35,571 nt of DNA, from positions 1 through 35,571 of the forward strand of contig JAFTAH010000113.1 in the NCBI GenBank assembly GCA_017458625.1. Reading direction: 5' to 3'. A program made the translations under genes and the position numbers. The notes under the pieces were generated by a model. It searched no databases. It was not told the origin of the DNA and saw only the letters and a list, made by a program, of their open reading frames with translations. Source of the DNA: Kiritimatiellia bacterium (GTDB lineage Bacteria > Verrucomicrobiota > Kiritimatiellia > CAIQIC01 > Lenti-01). Of the stretch, positions 3,901 through 24,940 are shown in pieces (the stretch's first letter is position 1; each line of letters opens with the position of its first letter).

Positions 3901-5861
3901 ACGGTCTGCCCCACACCAACACCTTCGCCGTCTCCCCCGCCACCGCCGTCTGGACCGTCACCTACGCCGACGCCACCGGCGCCGACACCAACCTCCTCGC
4001 CGCCCCCGTCGAAGTCGGCGCCTACTCCGCCACCGTCACCGTCCTCGCCTCCGACGACGCCCTCCCCGCCACCTTCCTCTTCCCCTCCTCCGTCGTCATC
4101 CGCCCCTTCATCCGCGCCCCCGAAGCCGTCGCCGTCGAATCCCTCGCCTCCCACTGCACCGCCGTCCTCTCCGCCACCGTCGTTCCCTGGACCGACGAAG
4201 GCGACGACCCCGTCCCTGTCATCTTCGAATACGGCCCATCCGCCTCCTTCGGCAACAAGGTTCTCGCCGACGAATCCCCCGTCGCCGGCACCAACGCCGT
4301 CCCCGTCTTCGTCACCCTCGACGGTCTCTCCCCCTCCACCCTCTACTACTGGCGCGTCCGCGCCGGCAACACCATCTCCGCCCCCCTCTCCTTCACCACC
4401 GACGAGCTCCCCGTCCCCGCCCTCTCCATCTACGCCATCGGCACCAACGAGCTCCTCGCCGCCTGGGAACCCGTCGAAGGCGCAACCAACTACGTCCTCG
4501 ACGTCCACACCCTCTCCGCCGCCGCCCCCGCCCAGACCATCGCCGAAGACTTCACCGACTGGGCCTACTACTACGACTACTTCGCCAGCTTGGGCATGGG
4601 CAACTCCCTCCACGTCCAGGAAACCGGCGCCGGCACCTGGACCACCACCAACTCCTCCGTCCTCAACACTGGTGCCAAGTCCGTCCCCGGCTCCAAGGGC
4701 TACGTCGCCATCTCCTCTGGCGGCTGGCTCCAGACCCCGCCCCTGCCCAACCTCGGCCAGGCCGCCTTCGTCGCCCGCACCTCCAGCGGCTCCGGAACCC
4801 TCCAGCTCCTCGTCTCCGAGGACGGTGGCGCCACCTTCGCCGAAGCCGCCTCCTACGTCCTCTCCAAGACCGCCGCCTGGAAGACCAACACCTGGGCCAC
4901 CCCCCTCCCCGACGGGGCCATCCTCCGCCTGGCCAACGCCTCCACCCGTGAAATCCGCCTCCACGACCTCGTCCTCTCCTCCTCCGCCACCGCCGCCGCC
5001 GCCCTCCCCGGCTACCCCCTCGCCCTCGACGCCGCCTCCGCCGGATCCCCCCCCGCCTACGTCGTCACCAGCCTCGACCGCCTTACCACCTACCACGTCA
5101 CCCTCCAGGCCCAGGGCGTCGGCTGGACCACCGAATGGGCCGAGACCATCTCCGCCACCACCCTTGCCGATGGCCACACCCCTGCCTTCTCCCCCTGGCT
5201 CACCACCCCTTCCGTCGCCGTCGGAGACACCCTGACCGTCACCGTCGCCGCCTCCGGCGACCCCGCACCCGCCCTCGAGCTCCTCTCCGCGACCGCCACC
5301 GGCTCCGCCGAGCTCCTCTCCCCCGTCGCCGCCGACGTCACCACCACCGCCACCCTCGCCTACGCCCCCGACCCCGCCGACATCGGCACCAACACCTTCC
5401 GCATCCTCGCCTCCAACCTCTACGGCGCCGTCACCAACGACTTCTCCGTCCTCGTCACCCCCGCCACCAACGCCGCCGCCCGCTACGAGGCCTGGATCGC
5501 CGACGCCATCCCCGATCCCGCCGCCCCCGCCTCCGACCTCCTCCCCTCCGCCGACCCCGATGCCGATGGCCAGACCAACTGGCAGGAATTCCTCGCCGAC
5601 ACCGACCCTGCCGACCCTGCCAGCCTGCTGGAGCTCGTTCCGATGGCCTTCGACGCCGATGGCGCCCTCCTCTTCACCTTCCCCGCCTCCACCGGCCGCT
5701 ACTACCAGCTCCTCTACGCCACCAACCTCCTCCAGCCTTTCGCCACCAACGCCCTAGGCTACGGCCCCGCCGCCGACGCCCCTCTCTTCACCAACCCCCT
5801 CCCCGCCACCTCCCCCGCCCTCTTCCTCCGCCTCCGCGCCCTCCTCGCCCCCCCCGAATAA
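990..5861 (+). CDS. Giant secreted endonuclease/exonuclease/phosphatase-family protein with lamin-tail, thrombospondin type 3 and Fn3-like modules
   Basis: The 1623-residue protein begins with a Sec signal peptide (cleavage likely after AQA, residue 30). Residues 32-370 form an endonuclease/exonuclease/phosphatase domain: SWNILNG (37-43), the acidic site FAELNND (78-84), VVMGDFNEN (204-212), HKLDYILFS (298-306) and LDHLMVFGD (358-366) supply the expected Asn, Glu, Asp-Asn, Asp and His positions. A lamin-tail-like domain follows (about 380-500), then a second one near 660-780. Two Asp-rich thrombospondin type 3 repeats (about 876-953, probably calcium-binding), an MBG-like segment, Fn3-like and Ig-like segments, and an EF-hand/dockerin-like loop near 1540 come next. 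The C-terminal 80 residues end in [12 protein letters not shown] and may be a sorting or repeat tail. It probably hydrolyses extracellular nucleic acid or a phosphoester; the substrate is unknown. Codons become far more C-rich after about position 2180. Confidence 0.88.
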
Positions 5862-5914
5862 CCCCGTCCCTTGCTCAACCGGAACAGCTACCTTCCCTCC
5901 CCGGAGACCTCCCC

Positions 5915-6577
5915 ATGAACAACGACTACACCCACCTTGGAATCCCCCAATCCCCGACCTCCTCCCCTGCCCATCGCTCCGGCGGCACGAACTCCGCCGG
6001 GTGCCTCACAACCATCGTGACGGTCGCCGTCGTGCTCCTGGTGCTGGCCGCCATCGTGGCCTTCGCCGCCATCTGGGTTCGCAACGGGCTCGTCGAAAAG
6101 TCGGAGGCCGTGTCCGCCCAGTGGAGCGAAATCGACAACCAGCTCCTCCGCCGCGCCGACCTCATCCCCAACCTCGTGGCCACCGTCAAAGGCTACGCCC
6201 AGCACGAGGAGGACATCTTCAAGGCCGTCGCCGACGCCCGCTCCGCCCTCCTGGCCGCCTCCAGCGCGCCCGACAAGGCCGCCGCCGACTCCGCCCTCGA
6301 CGCCTCGCTCTCCCGCCTGCTCGCCATCGCCGAAAGCTATCCCGAGCTCAAGGCCAACGAAAACTTTGCCCGCCTCCAGGACGAGCTCGCCGGCACCGAA
6401 AACCGCATTGCCGTCGCCCGCACCCGCTACAACGAGGCCGCCCAAGCCCTCAATGCCGCCCTGCGCAAGTTCCCCGAGTCGCTTTTCGTGCCCGGCCTCG
6501 GCCTGGAAAAGGCCGACTACTTCCAGCCCCCGGCCGACGCGCCCGACCTCCAGCATCCGCCCACCGTCGCCTTCTAG
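5915..6577 (+). CDS. lemA: LemA family protein
   Basis: The protein has 220 residues. A Pro/Ser/Gly-rich N-terminal stretch of about 30 residues precedes one membrane segment (about 31-55). The LemA signature follows: a helix with SAQWSEIDNQLLRRADLIPN, then VKGYAQHEE (residues 92-100), and further long alpha-helical segments. ATG 5915 is preceded by GGAG at 5903-5906 with eight bases of spacing. A longer frame running back into the previous gene has an Arg/His/Pro-rich translation and is rejected. LemA proteins are membrane-anchored helical-bundle proteins of unclear molecular function, very often paired with TPM-domain proteins. Here that partner starts 18 bases after the stop, so the two are almost certainly one operon. 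Confidence 0.93.
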   Translation: MNNDYTHLGIPQSPTSSPAHRSGGTNSAGCLTTIVTVAVVLLVLAAIVAFAAIWVRNGLVEKSEAVSAQWSEIDNQLLRRADLIPNLVATVKGYAQHEEDIFKAVADARSALLAASSAPDKAAADSALDASLSRLLAIAESYPELKANENFARLQDELAGTENRIAVARTRYNEAAQALNAALRKFPESLFVPGLGLEKADYFQPPADAPDLQHPPTVAF

Positions 6578-7698: not shown

Positions 7699-7723
7699 CC
7701 CAAAACATGTTTCCATTGTCTGG
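7699..7723 (+). repeat. 25-base direct repeat, copy 2
   Basis: Perfect second copy. Together with the following bases it forms the hairpin TTTCCA-TTGTC-TGGAAA. A related palindrome with TTCCATT and AATGGAA arms follows at 7742-7756, suggesting a family of TTTCCA/TGGAAA hairpin repeats. Confidence 0.8.
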
Positions 7724-7741
7724 AAAAATGCCCAAAGATGC

Positions 7742-17585: not shown

Positions 17586-18788
17586 TCAATAGAACCGCCT
17601 CGGGACAAAGGCGGCCGGGGACGCAAACGGGGCCTCCGCCGGGGCACCCCACAGCTTCTGGAGCCATTCCGGACGCGCACCGGGCGTTGTCCAGAGCCCG
17701 CCGCGCGAGGCATACAGGATTTCCAGCACCTTGAGCAACGCCTTGCCCGTCTTCGCGGGGAGGTAGCGCACGGGCGAGGTCACGCACAGGCCAATCCCCT
17801 CCCGTCCCGTCGTCGGGTCGGGCTGCCGCGTCAGCTCCACCCCGGGCAACTCTTCGTCGCGAAGCCGCCCCAACGCCTCGCCTACGTCCAGGTCGGGTGC
17901 CGAAACCACCTGAAACGCCTGGTCGCTCGCCCGTGCATGGGAAAAATAGGGCAAGGCCTCCAGGAAGACCGTCGCCGGAAAGCAAAGAGCCGCCTCCAGG
18001 TTCCGAATCGCCGGCGATGGCACCGGGAAGGCCCCCGGGAACAACGCACGCAACTGCACCAGCGAATCGTCCGCCACCTCCTCCCCCCCGCACCCTGGCC
18101 GCGCTTTCCTGGCATGGCTTGCCTTGCTCACCGGCCGCGCCAGCCCGTGAACCCGGGCCACCAGCAAGTCCAGCTGCGGCAACGGCAGCGTCGCCTTGAG
18201 CTGCCAGGCCACTTCGCCCGGCGTCAAGCCATAGACGAAAGGCACGGGAGCCAGCGCCACGAAAGAGCTGTATGCCGCCGCCAGCATCGGTCCGTCCGGC
18301 GCCGTGAACATCAGCGGATCCGCGCGATCCGCCACCACCAGCGGAATATGCCGCGCCGCACACGCCTCCATCACCAGCCGCAAGGTGGAAACATACGTGT
18401 AGGCCCGGCATGCCAGCGTCTGGAGGTCGAAGATCATCAAATCCAGCCCCTCCAGCATGGCCGGTGTCGGGGCGCGCGTCTCGCCGTACAGCGAATAAAT
18501 CGGCAGCCCCAACGCCGGATGCACCCCACCGGCCACCGCATCTCCGGGGCCGGCCCGCCCGAAAAAGCCGTGCTCCGGACCGAAAAGCGCCGCCAGCGGA
18601 AGCCCTTGGCGCAGCAGGTAGTCGCATGAATGCTCCCCTCCCCCCGTCAGCGACGCCGGATGCGCCACCAAGCCGATGCGCCTCGCGCCCCGCACCAGCG
18701 GGCTGTCCGGAAGGTTTTCGATGCCGGGCCGTATCCCCTCCCCCGCCTCCGCCGCGGACGACCGGGCCTCCCTGCGGCCACGGATCAC
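17586..18788 (-). CDS. NamZ-like exo-beta-N-acetylmuramidase (DUF1343), apparently without signal peptide
   Basis: The protein has 400 residues. DUF1343 hallmarks are clear: RIGLVAHPASLTGGGEHSCD (about 37-56), LFGPEHGFFGRAGPGD (about 68-83), LPIYSLYGETRAPTPAML, DLMIFDLQTLACRAYTYVST and a YGLTPGEVAW block. The family removes N-acetylmuramic acid from the non-reducing end of peptidoglycan fragments. Two usually strict motifs are altered: the DRPNP-type motif reads DRADP, and the later SPN motif reads SPAIRN. The N-terminus is polar and shows no signal peptide, while known NamZ proteins are mostly secreted, so this one may act in the cytoplasm or be exported differently. GTG 18788 overlaps the previous stop (GTGA) and has a strong AGGAGG-type site, so it is translationally coupled to the regulator. 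Confidence 0.85.
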   Translation of the reverse strand: MIRGRREARSSAAEAGEGIRPGIENLPDSPLVRGARRIGLVAHPASLTGGGEHSCDYLLRQGLPLAALFGPEHGFFGRAGPGDAVAGGVHPALGLPIYSLYGETRAPTPAMLEGLDLMIFDLQTLACRAYTYVSTLRLVMEACAARHIPLVVADRADPLMFTAPDGPMLAAAYSSFVALAPVPFVYGLTPGEVAWQLKATLPLPQLDLLVARVHGLARPVSKASHARKARPGCGGEEVADDSLVQLRALFPGAFPVPSPAIRNLEAALCFPATVFLEALPYFSHARASDQAFQVVSAPDLDVGEALGRLRDEELPGVELTRQPDPTTGREGIGLCVTSPVRYLPAKTGKALLKVLEILYASRGGLWTTPGARPEWLQKLWGAPAEAPFASPAAFVPRRFY

Positions 18789-19585
18789 TCCCCCCCCTCC
18801 TTCGGAGCCGCCGCGCCTCCAGCCACCCCCGAAGCCCCATCCACTCCGGCGCTCGATGCTCCCGCCCCGCTCGCCACCGCCGCCGCCGCAGTCGGCGCAT
18901 CGAACTGCTCCGCCGCCGCCAGAATCTCCTCGCGCGACGCCTCCCGCATGATGAGGCCCTTGAAGTGCGGATTCCTCAACGCAAACGTGATTCTTGCCAG
19001 CAACTGCAAATGGACGCGAACATTCGGGGCCAGCGGGCAGAACAGAATCCGCACCGGATGCCCGTCAATCGCTGCAAATTCCAGCGGATGCTCCAGAAAC
19101 CCCAGGAAAATCCGCGGCGACTGCAACTCCAGCACGCCCGGATTCCGCAAATGCGGCAGGGCAATCCCTTCGCCGATGCCCGTGGATTGCAGCTGTTCCC
19201 GCGCCAGCAGGGCCTGACGCAGGAAAGGACGGTTCACCGTGTCCGGCAGATTCATCAGGGCCACCACATGCTGGAAGACCTCCTCCAATGTCGTTCCTTC
19301 GATTCGATAGTGGATGCCGCCCTGGCGAAGCGCCTGGGCCAGAGACACCGCCGGAACCGATGTGTTGACCATCGGGGCCGTTCCTCCCCCGGTCGCACCG
19401 CTAGACGGCTCGTCCGGCGTGAAATTGATCCGCTTGGAGGTCGCCCACTCGAAAAGCATGGCCCGGTTGATCCGATACTGCCCCGCTACCCGGTACGCTG
19501 GCAACCCGCCCGTCTGAATCCAGCGGTAAATCGTCTTCTCGCCCACATTGAGCGCCTGCGCCGCATCCTTGACCGTCAATTGCAT
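18785..19585 (-). CDS. Helix-turn-helix regulator fused to a fructose-type PTS EIIA domain
   Basis: The protein has 266 residues. Residues 1-48 are an excisionase/MerR-like winged helix (LTVKDAAQALNVGEKTIYRW, then LPAYRVAGQYRI). Residues about 80-230 form an EIIA (PtsN-type) domain whose phosphorylatable His is H145 in GIALPHLRNPG, with the second conserved His at 192 (VHLQLLARI). An Ala/Gly-rich tail of about 35 residues follows. The architecture suggests a DNA-binding protein whose activity responds to phosphotransfer from HPr-like proteins and hence to sugar or PEP status. ATG 19585 has GGAG seven bases upstream and a consensus promoter. An upstream in-frame extension lacks homology and crosses the promoter. 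It leads an operon with namZ-like, lnt and alaS. Confidence 0.88.
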   Translation of the reverse strand: MQLTVKDAAQALNVGEKTIYRWIQTGGLPAYRVAGQYRINRAMLFEWATSKRINFTPDEPSSGATGGGTAPMVNTSVPAVSLAQALRQGGIHYRIEGTTLEEVFQHVVALMNLPDTVNRPFLRQALLAREQLQSTGIGEGIALPHLRNPGVLELQSPRIFLGFLEHPLEFAAIDGHPVRILFCPLAPNVRVHLQLLARITFALRNPHFKGLIMREASREEILAAAEQFDAPTAAAAVASGAGASSAGVDGASGVAGGAAAPKEGGE

Positions 19586-19609
19586 CGCTTGTCTCCTTCC
19601 GATGGGAAA

Positions 19610-19638
19610 AATGTACAATCCGCCGGGAGAAATGTCAA
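19610..19638 (-). promoter_or_regulatory. Strong candidate sigma-70 promoter for the EIIA-regulator/namZ/lnt/alaS operon
   Basis: On the minus strand a perfect TTGACA (19633-19638) and TACATT (19610-19615) are separated by 17 bases. The leader to ATG 19585 is short and carries the AAGGAG ribosome site. This is the best promoter match in the window. Confidence 0.6.
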
Positions 19639-19753
19639 CTCCGCTCCACGCGGCCCAGATTGCCCAAAACAGCACTCACAACGCTCATCCCGTCAGTGGA
19701 GACGCGAGCCACATCGGCCTCCAGGGCTCGCACGACCACTGTTGTTCATGGAA

Positions 19754-23128: not shown

Positions 23129-24940
23129 CTACTTCTCGACGGGAACCACGATGCCGCGCAACAACACCCGCTGGCAGGCCAGAAACACCGCCAAGGTCGG
23201 AATCGCCGCCAGGATGAGCGAGGCCTGCACCACGCCCGGCCCGCTGCGCTGCTGGAGCTGATAGAGCCAGACCATCAGCGTCCACATCTTCGGCGACTGG
23301 CAGATCAGCAGCGCATACATGAAGTTGGCGTAGGCCACCGTGAACGCCTGGAGCGCAATCACCGACAGAATCGGCGTCGACAGCCGCATGGTCAGTTGCC
23401 AGAACAGCGTCCACTCCCCCGCCCCGTCGATCTGCGCCGACTCGTACAGCTCCTGCGGCAGCGAGTCGAAGAACCCCTTGAGCAGGAAAATCGAGTAGCC
23501 GCTGGCCATGCCGGGCAATAGCAGCGCGGCAAACGTGTTGAGCAGCCCCAGCTCGCGTAGCAGGATGAATACCGGGATCTGCGTCACCATGTGCGGAAAC
23601 GCCATCGTCAGCATCAGGAAGAAGAGAACCTGGTTCGTGGCCCGCAACTTCGCCCGGCTCAGCGCATAGGCCGCCAGCGGATTGACCAGCAGCGCCAGCA
23701 GCACCGCCAGTGCGCAGTAGACGACCGTGTTGAGGATGCCCCGGCCATGGAACAACACGTAGTCGAGCACCGTCCGGTAGTTGCGCCAGAGAAATTCGCG
23801 GCGGATGGCCGTGCGGTGCTCCCGGAAAAGCCGCGCATGGTAGGCCAGTTGCGGCATCGGCACCCAGGCACCATCGGCCGGCACGCGCCCCGTCTCGCGC
23901 AGCCACGCATTCCAGAGGTGGTCGGGCGTCCGGAGGCGGCCATCGACGGTCCGCCACCGCGACGACAGCGACTGCCCCGCAAACTGCCGCCAGACCACCC
24001 CGAAGGCCGGCGTCGGCTCCATCATCCACGTCGCCGCCTCCCCCGCGTCACGCGGTGAGATTACGGTGGAATCTTCGGGTTTTTCCGCATTTTCTCCTTC
24101 CACCCCGGCCGCCGCCGCCCCTTCTTCCGGCTCGGGCGGCCCCCCCTCGCACAAGAGATCGGACATCAGATGCAGGGTCTCCGGGAAAGGAATCTCCGCC
24201 CAGCTCCGGTAGCCCGTCCCGAGGGCGCGATTCACCTCCTCCAGTCCCGGACCGTACCGTGGCTTCAGAAACAGCCGATGCCAGTAGCCTTCCGCGCAGG
24301 CCACGCTCCGGGTCCAGGCGGGCGCGGACGTCGCCGTGTAGTCGCGGAGCGCCTGCACGACCGCCGATTCAGGCACGTCCGAGTGCGGGAAAAGCGTTGC
24401 CGGCGGCTGGGCAAAGACGTCGTACCACGCCTCAAAGTCCGTCCCCAGCGCCTGGTTGAGGGCGTCCAACGTCCCAAAGCGCCATTGAAGCGCCTCCCGG
24501 AACCCGCGCAAGGCCACCGGAAACGCCCCCGCCTGCGGTGCCCAGTAGTGGCCCTGCAAAAACGCCGCCGCCGGCAAGGCCCCGCTCGCCAGGAACGCTT
24601 CCCACGCCTCCACCCATTCCTCCCCCGGTGCCTCGCCTTCGGCAGGCAGGCGCGCATCCGCAAACGTCGTCCAGCTCGTGTCCAGCGCGATGTTCATGGC
24701 ATCGACGGACTCGTTGAACAACGCTTCCAGATGCTTCTGCCAGAGCAACTGCTCATGCTGCAGGAACCCCGGCACCAGCCGCGCCTCGCGCTGGTCCGCC
24801 ACCGACTTCGTACTGCCCGCCAGCACCAGCCCCAGCGGAATCACCATGCACGCCGCCCCCGCCGTCAGCAATGCATAGATCGCCCCCACGAGCAGCCGCC
24901 CGCGCCAGGATCGTCGGTTGATGGGACTCAAAATGGCCAT
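23129..24940 (-). CDS. Carbohydrate ABC transporter permease (MalG type) with a ~330-residue loop insertion
   Basis: The protein has 603 residues; the family usually has about 270-300. Membrane segment 1 lies at about 16-42. Residues 50-380 form a hydrophilic insertion. The family core resumes at NYRTVLDYVLFHGRGILNTVVYC (388-409) with further segments, and the EAA loop that contacts the ATPase reads ELYESAQIDGAGEWTLFWQL (497-516). The insertion should be extracytoplasmic because it follows the first segment. It contains two related units, TLDALNQALGTDFEAW (157-172) and LEEVNRALGTGYRSW (233-247), perhaps a third near 338-360. These resemble the YGT-LNxAxGT-Y-W signature found in GH42-type beta-galactosidases. 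No partner permease, ATPase or binding protein is nearby. ATG 24940 has TAGGAT nine bases upstream. The stop is TAG. Confidence 0.9.
   Translation of the reverse strand: MAILSPINRRSWRGRLLVGAIYALLTAGAACMVIPLGLVLAGSTKSVADQREARLVPGFLQHEQLLWQKHLEALFNESVDAMNIALDTSWTTFADARLPAEGEAPGEEWVEAWEAFLASGALPAAAFLQGHYWAPQAGAFPVALRGFREALQWRFGTLDALNQALGTDFEAWYDVFAQPPATLFPHSDVPESAVVQALRDYTATSAPAWTRSVACAEGYWHRLFLKPRYGPGLEEVNRALGTGYRSWAEIPFPETLHLMSDLLCEGGPPEPEEGAAAAGVEGENAEKPEDSTVISPRDAGEAATWMMEPTPAFGVVWRQFAGQSLSSRWRTVDGRLRTPDHLWNAWLRETGRVPADGAWVPMPQLAYHARLFREHRTAIRREFLWRNYRTVLDYVLFHGRGILNTVVYCALAVLLALLVNPLAAYALSRAKLRATNQVLFFLMLTMAFPHMVTQIPVFILLRELGLLNTFAALLLPGMASGYSIFLLKGFFDSLPQELYESAQIDGAGEWTLFWQLTMRLSTPILSVIALQAFTVAYANFMYALLICQSPKMWTLMVWLYQLQQRSGPGVVQASLILAAIPTLAVFLACQRVLLRGIVVPVEK

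Follow-up and report, generated by a model that had tools for sequence, protein, structure and literature searches.

Within the window, the whole 35,571-nucleotide stretch of DNA that was analysed, the open reading frame at 23129-24940 on the reverse strand begins with ATG, contains zero internal stops, and has coding-like GC contents at the three codon positions (0.66/0.48/0.86); its start codon is consistent with the starts of its relatives. Judged from its sequence, the encoded protein is a MalG-type subunit of a CUT1-type sugar ABC importer. The gene and its permease portion comprise the following features.

23129..24940, reverse strand: predicted MalG-type (CUT1) ABC permease gene, 603 aa (open reading frame and translation; BPD_transp_1, 7e-14; full-length homology to relatives)
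24839..24895, reverse strand: TM1, residues 16-34 (hydropathy)
23162..23659, reverse strand: permease core, BPD_transp_1, residues 428-593 (Pfam)
23366..23452, reverse strand: presumed EAA-type ATPase-coupling loop, residues 497-525, ELYESAQIDGAGEW... (sequence; columns near-invariant across relatives)

The Pfam domain BPD_transp_1 was matched with 52.4 bits against a curated cut-off of 26.4 (E = 7e-14), and the best sequence matches in solved structures, AlgM2, SugB, and MalG, all run from approximately residue 379 onward, which bears out the original prediction of a MalG-type permease. The window permease is nearest to the MalG/UgpE/SugB-type subunits, and shares with E. coli MalG, UgpE, SugB, and AlgM2 (CUT1) the same permease core, the BPD_transp_1 domain, and the EAA-type loop, which we take to be residues 497-525. 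The NCBIfam models for UgpE, MalG, and GlcU also match the core, each below its own equivalog cut-off, so that the type of the subunit is clear and no substrate can be called from them. The second membrane segment was placed by hydropathy at residues 401-419, and the core is 77-82% identical to that of the other genera in the window's family.

An insertion between TM1 and TM2

Between the first two membrane segments, the protein carries an insertion of approximately 335 residues. Alignment with the relatives and hydropathy, which leaves approximately residues 44-390 as extracytoplasmic, agree with the roughly 330 extra residues (50-380) that had been predicted at this position. Assuming the usual MalG topology, we infer that the insertion lies outside the membrane, in the periplasm. 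In E. coli MalG and the other CUT1 permeases, by contrast, the first periplasmic loop is short. The features of the insertion are listed below.

23801..24811, reverse strand: extracytoplasmic insertion between TM1 and TM2, residues 44-380 (alignment with relatives; AlphaFold2; missing from ordinary MalG-type permeases)
24563..24751, reverse strand: repeat unit 1, residues 64-126 (unit HMM 51.7 bits; overlooked in the original prediction)
24317..24523, reverse strand: repeat unit 2, residues 140-208, which takes in 157-172 (unit HMM 33.2 bits; Pfam GH42 match at 143-176)
23948..24298, reverse strand: repeat unit 3, residues 215-331, which takes in 233-247, split by a low-complexity linker (unit HMM 36.4 bits)
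23963..24118, reverse strand: disordered acidic/Gly/Pro-rich linker inside unit 3, residues 275-326 (AlphaFold2: most of the model residues 232-283 have pLDDT <50)
23843..23935, reverse strand: last unit, worn down to a remnant, residues 336-366 (alignment position; no unit HMM match)

When the whole protein was used as the query, 190 of 289 genomes of the phylum had a match, a count that includes permeases matched through the core only; an insertion-only profile reached E = 1e-10 or better in 14 of 79 genomes of the phylum, from 12 genera. The scan with one genome per species yielded 79 loci, with titles naming Kiritimatiellae, Verrucomicrobia, Lentisphaerae, Planctomycetes/Phycisphaerae, Armatimonadetes/Fimbriimonas, Elusimicrobia, Sumerlaeota, Hydrogenedentota, and Zipacnadia. 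The insertion is thus carried by many homologous permeases, and its occurrence in many genera and several phyla rules out an assembly artefact. Across the other genera of the window's family, it is approximately 50% identical. Matches are encoded in 1764 plasmid records, and in none of them does the match cover 80% of the query, indicating that the insertion is not general to such permeases.

The AlphaFold2 model of the window insertion (residues 44-392) has a mean pLDDT of 81.8, with values of at least 90 in 209 of the 349 residues, and its low-confidence stretch corresponds to model residues 232-283; a disordered insertion is ruled out by this ordered model. For the five-unit insertion of a relative (L075), the pLDDT was 94.6 and the pTM was 0.90, and the model consists of five repeats of a helix, a helix, a short 3-10 turn, a helix, and a short strand. 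As modelled, the insertion is an ordered helical array of tandem units.

Tandem units within the insertion

The aligned insertions show a recurring pattern of approximately 70 residues, roughly YR.xLxxxY..xI..LN...xTxY.SF....P....DW..F. An HMM of the unit, built from 40 relatives with the window and its close family left out, found three units in the window protein, and the best score among 1000 shuffles was 6.4 bits. The two units originally marked at residues 157-172 and 233-247 are real and fall inside units 2 and 3 of the HMM. A possible third, near 338-360, has no match to the unit HMM, and by its position it corresponds to what is left of the worn last unit. By-eye comparison showed that the linker of approximately 50 residues in unit 3 is missing from close relatives, such as L041.

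Among 88 full-length sequences, in which the window protein is counted twice, once as the query, five units were found in 57, four in 5, three in 18, and two in 8. The window's family lacks the fourth unit and half of the fifth, with boundaries set by eye from the alignment. The near-invariant residues of the insertion are mostly repeated scaffold positions, as opposed to a unique pocket; this pattern in the sequences leans weakly towards a scaffold role.

Similarity of the unit to a segment of glycosidases

The Pfam GH42 model matched the window protein with E = 0.0013 and 18.6 bits, under the cut-off of 21, and the match is limited to residues 143-176, which correspond to profile positions 150-184 of 376. 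In the relatives, the same model gave stronger matches (4.8e-16 for L096 and 2.3e-10 for L075). The profile of the whole insertion matched 29 distinct PDB sequences (best E = 7.6e-6) and the profile of a single unit matched 32 (best E = 5.2e-7), all but one being carbohydrate-active enzymes in each case. Each matched enzyme aligns with the unit over one stretch alone. In addition, the unit is present once in two GH42-like enzymes encoded near the relatives L086 and L075.

Thus, in the GH42 beta-galactosidases, GH14 beta-amylases, GH50 agarases, and GH167 enzymes, one segment of approximately 35-55 residues resembles each unit. These enzymes possess a barrel and a catalytic site, whereas the array consists of tandem copies with neither, on a membrane-bound importer. 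The original prediction of a GH42 surface motif was therefore right as to the GH42 likeness and too narrow as to the family, because GH14, GH50, GH167, and other barrel glycosidases share the segment. A functional glycosidase is ruled out by the local extent of the match and the lack of a catalytic barrel, and with no full-length match above the curated cut-off and no barrel, the protein falls outside GH42. The sequence likeness suggests that the unit and the glycosidase segment are likely to share descent, although short helical motifs can converge.

Foldseek comparison of the array models with the PDB gave no match at E <=0.001 and no whole-fold relative, so that, for the predicted models, there is no fold-level match to guide the function of the array. 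The weak local matches were mostly to beta-amylases, agarases, GH42, GH167, and one beta-1,2-glucosyltransferase, the tightest having an rmsd of 1.0-1.7 A across 35-44 residues.

A fused binding protein and permease as the probable partner

Of the loci, 69 were informative, having enough upstream DNA, with two ordinary Lachnospiraceae permeases set aside. In 42 of the 69, from several phyla, the permease gene directly follows an open reading frame in which SBP_bac_1 is fused to a MalF-type permease, SBP_bac_1 and BPD_transp_1 being found in one polypeptide. In the window itself there is no binding protein gene near the permease gene, just as had been noted from the sequence. However, the proposal built on this observation, that the loop may take the place of an absent binding protein, is for the most part incorrect, since a fused one precedes the gene in those 42 loci and is encoded on contig C43 in the window's genome; an ordinary permease that simply has no binding protein is ruled out for the family for the same reason.

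The fusion in the window's genome (G000:C43:8089-10875) aligns with the binding-protein half as well as the permease half of the fusion P0002 and also matches Pfam SBP_bac_1, and the window permease is located on contig C63, in an assembly of 2.69 Mb in 165 contigs that is 80% complete. The products of these two unlinked genes are presumed to pair. Each of the 12 related genomes tested has retained the fusion gene. Within the window's family, it is adjacent to the permease gene in G104 (124 bp); in G068 the two lie 2.4 kb apart on either side of a helicase gene, and in G095, G226, G265, and G090 the distance is 4-6 kb. Two candidate TOBE_2 ATPases are encoded on contig C38 of the window's genome, and like the fusion they are unlinked to the permease. 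Near some relatives, glycosidases and sulfatases are encoded, and the neighbouring enzymes vary by locus.

The window's genome also encodes another permease of the MalF type, 587 residues long, whose extracytoplasmic loop is large (G000:C135, L035:1652-3415). It lies on a 4-kb contig without a MalG and is a possible alternative partner of the window permease; for this reason, the fusion is not certain to be the partner in this genome.

In 18 loci, the available flanking DNA contains no fusion partner, and the two-unit permeases of Fimbriimonas-like Armatimonadota are among them. The short two-unit versions at L100, L104, and L107 have no importer gene nearby; they adjoin conserved genes for a rhomboid protein, a DUF5693 protein, and a polysaccharide pyruvyl-transferase.

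Co-divergence of the insertion and the binding domain

Distance matrices were compared for 44 pairs of fusion and permease over four segments, the binding domain, the MalF part, the insertion, and the MalG core. With both permease cores controlled, the partial correlation between the insertion and the binding domain was 0.504 (reached in 0 of 2000 permutations), whereas that between the insertion and its own MalG core was 0.285; the test was post hoc and the sequences are related, so that these distance correlations are only suggestive. The value for the binding domain and the MalG core was 0.05, which was not significant in the 44 pairs. The value for the insertion and the binding domain was 0.42-0.49 when the controls were cubic, rank, or p-distance, and 0.478 when the window's family was left out. 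Calculated per unit and per third of the insertion, the co-divergence showed no clear hot spot and no single unit ahead of the others. By this measure, the insertion has diverged more in step with the fused binding domain than with the permease core to which it is joined, a pattern that would arise from physical docking and also from a shared ligand.

Proposed role of the array

Our preferred reading, to which we give about an even chance, is that the array is a periplasmic scaffold, which would dock or position the tethered domain or the glycan that it binds. In this distinct importer architecture, the binding domain would be tethered to the channel through its fusion to the MalF-type permease, and a rigid array of helical units of approximately 70 residues would project from the MalG-type subunit between TM1 and TM2. 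The array would then dock the tethered binding domain, possibly with bound glycan, and position it over the channel, thereby doing the job of the MalF P2 loop in E. coli. Both the docking role and an oligosaccharide as the substrate are presumed here, and a fused binding domain might need such an arm less, not more.

The array may instead bind oligosaccharides itself, as originally suggested, and so provide an additional site of capture, from which glycans would pass to the channel or at which they would be concentrated near the membrane. Direct capture would suit the likeness of every unit to a segment of carbohydrate-active enzymes, the glycosidases and sulfatases near some loci, and the co-divergence with the binding domain, which is compatible with a shared ligand. 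On the other hand, a binding protein is already there, fused to the partner, the matched segment lacks the barrel in which the enzymes have their active site, and the near-invariant residues are mostly repeated structural positions, as opposed to a unique pocket; we regard direct capture as the main rival reading, and a less likely one. It is rather doubtful that these loci represent an undescribed and widespread class of importer, in which a tethered binding domain would act together with a periplasmic solenoid of a repeated glycosidase segment, and this solenoid would hold the glycan or guide it into the channel.

Contact with another component of the envelope, such as peptidoglycan, a glycosidase or sulfatase that is either secreted or membrane-bound, or some other protein, with products handed directly to the importer, appears improbable: the array is large and modular with a variable number of units, and degradative enzymes are encoded near some loci, but the neighbouring enzymes vary, whereas the fusion to the binding protein is the one recurring partner. 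Finally, in the window's lineage the array could be a relic, and the permease may use another partner or be disappearing. The lineage has three units where five are found elsewhere, a worn last unit, and a linker in unit 3, its fusion partner is on another contig, and another MalF-type permease is present on C135. Nevertheless, the reading frame is full, the core is conserved at 77-82% identity across the genera of the family, the insertion is ordered and approximately 50% identical, and the related genomes have retained the fusion gene in 12 of 12 cases, which makes a relic very unlikely.

Comparison with known importers

The MalF P2 loop of E. coli contacts the binding protein and, like the array, is an extra periplasmic domain on a CUT1 permease; to our knowledge, it has no such repeats. 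It is carried by MalF between TM3 and TM4 and has approximately 180 residues, whereas the array is carried by the MalG-type subunit, and its position between TM1 and TM2 places the insertion outside the MalF P2 type. The Bdellovibrio MalE-MalF is a binding protein-permease fusion, and we know of no repeat array on the second permease of this system, GlnPQ, or OpuA. GlnPQ and OpuA also have a binding domain fused to the permease (PMC8025302, PMC11065425). In all three, the binding domain is covalently tied to the permease, as in the partner fusion; GlnPQ and OpuA carry other substrates.

In MalG1/MalG2 of the Thermotogales, approximately 500 hydrophilic residues of unknown function lie between TM1 and TM2, reported in 2008 as having no similarity to known proteins, and the partners are reported as separate MalE and MalF genes (PMC2246101). 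This insertion, compared by its published description alone, is at the same place on the same subunit as the array, and a large MalG insertion as such is accordingly less novel. Neither the repeat array nor the fusion-permease gene pair was described in the open-access literature that was searched.

If the preferred reading of a docking scaffold is true, a piece of carbohydrate-active enzymes would have been reused in tandem as the periplasmic arm of a sugar importer, and many little-studied glycan-degrading bacteria would import through a tethered binding domain and such an arm. The array offers a testable case for the positioning of tethered binding domains, and may bear on the unexplained insertion of the Thermotogales MalG.

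Other observations at these loci

Arrays of the palindrome TTTTCCA-N5-TGGAAAA, with spacings of 22 and 30-31 bases, immediately precede both the fusion gene and the unlinked permease gene in several relatives (L150:539-660, L041:7906-7922, L050:7854-7977, and L151:5986-6055), and the window has a site at 7711-7727. The shorter form TTTCCA-N5-TGGAAA gave 104-420 forward matches per genome and 0 in the reversed control, and at some loci the repeat extends into the N-terminus of predicted proteins. The palindromes as proof of co-regulation of the unlinked genes are ruled out, being a striking interspersed repeat that is not confined to this importer.

Relatives of the window's family encode a second sugar importer (L161:1730-4141 and 4268-6040, reverse strand), in which two permease subunits form one open reading frame of 803 residues beside a binding protein of 590 residues. 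In the window, the protein encoded at positions 18785-19675 on the reverse strand has a helix-turn-helix at its N-terminus and also carries a PTS EIIA-2 domain.
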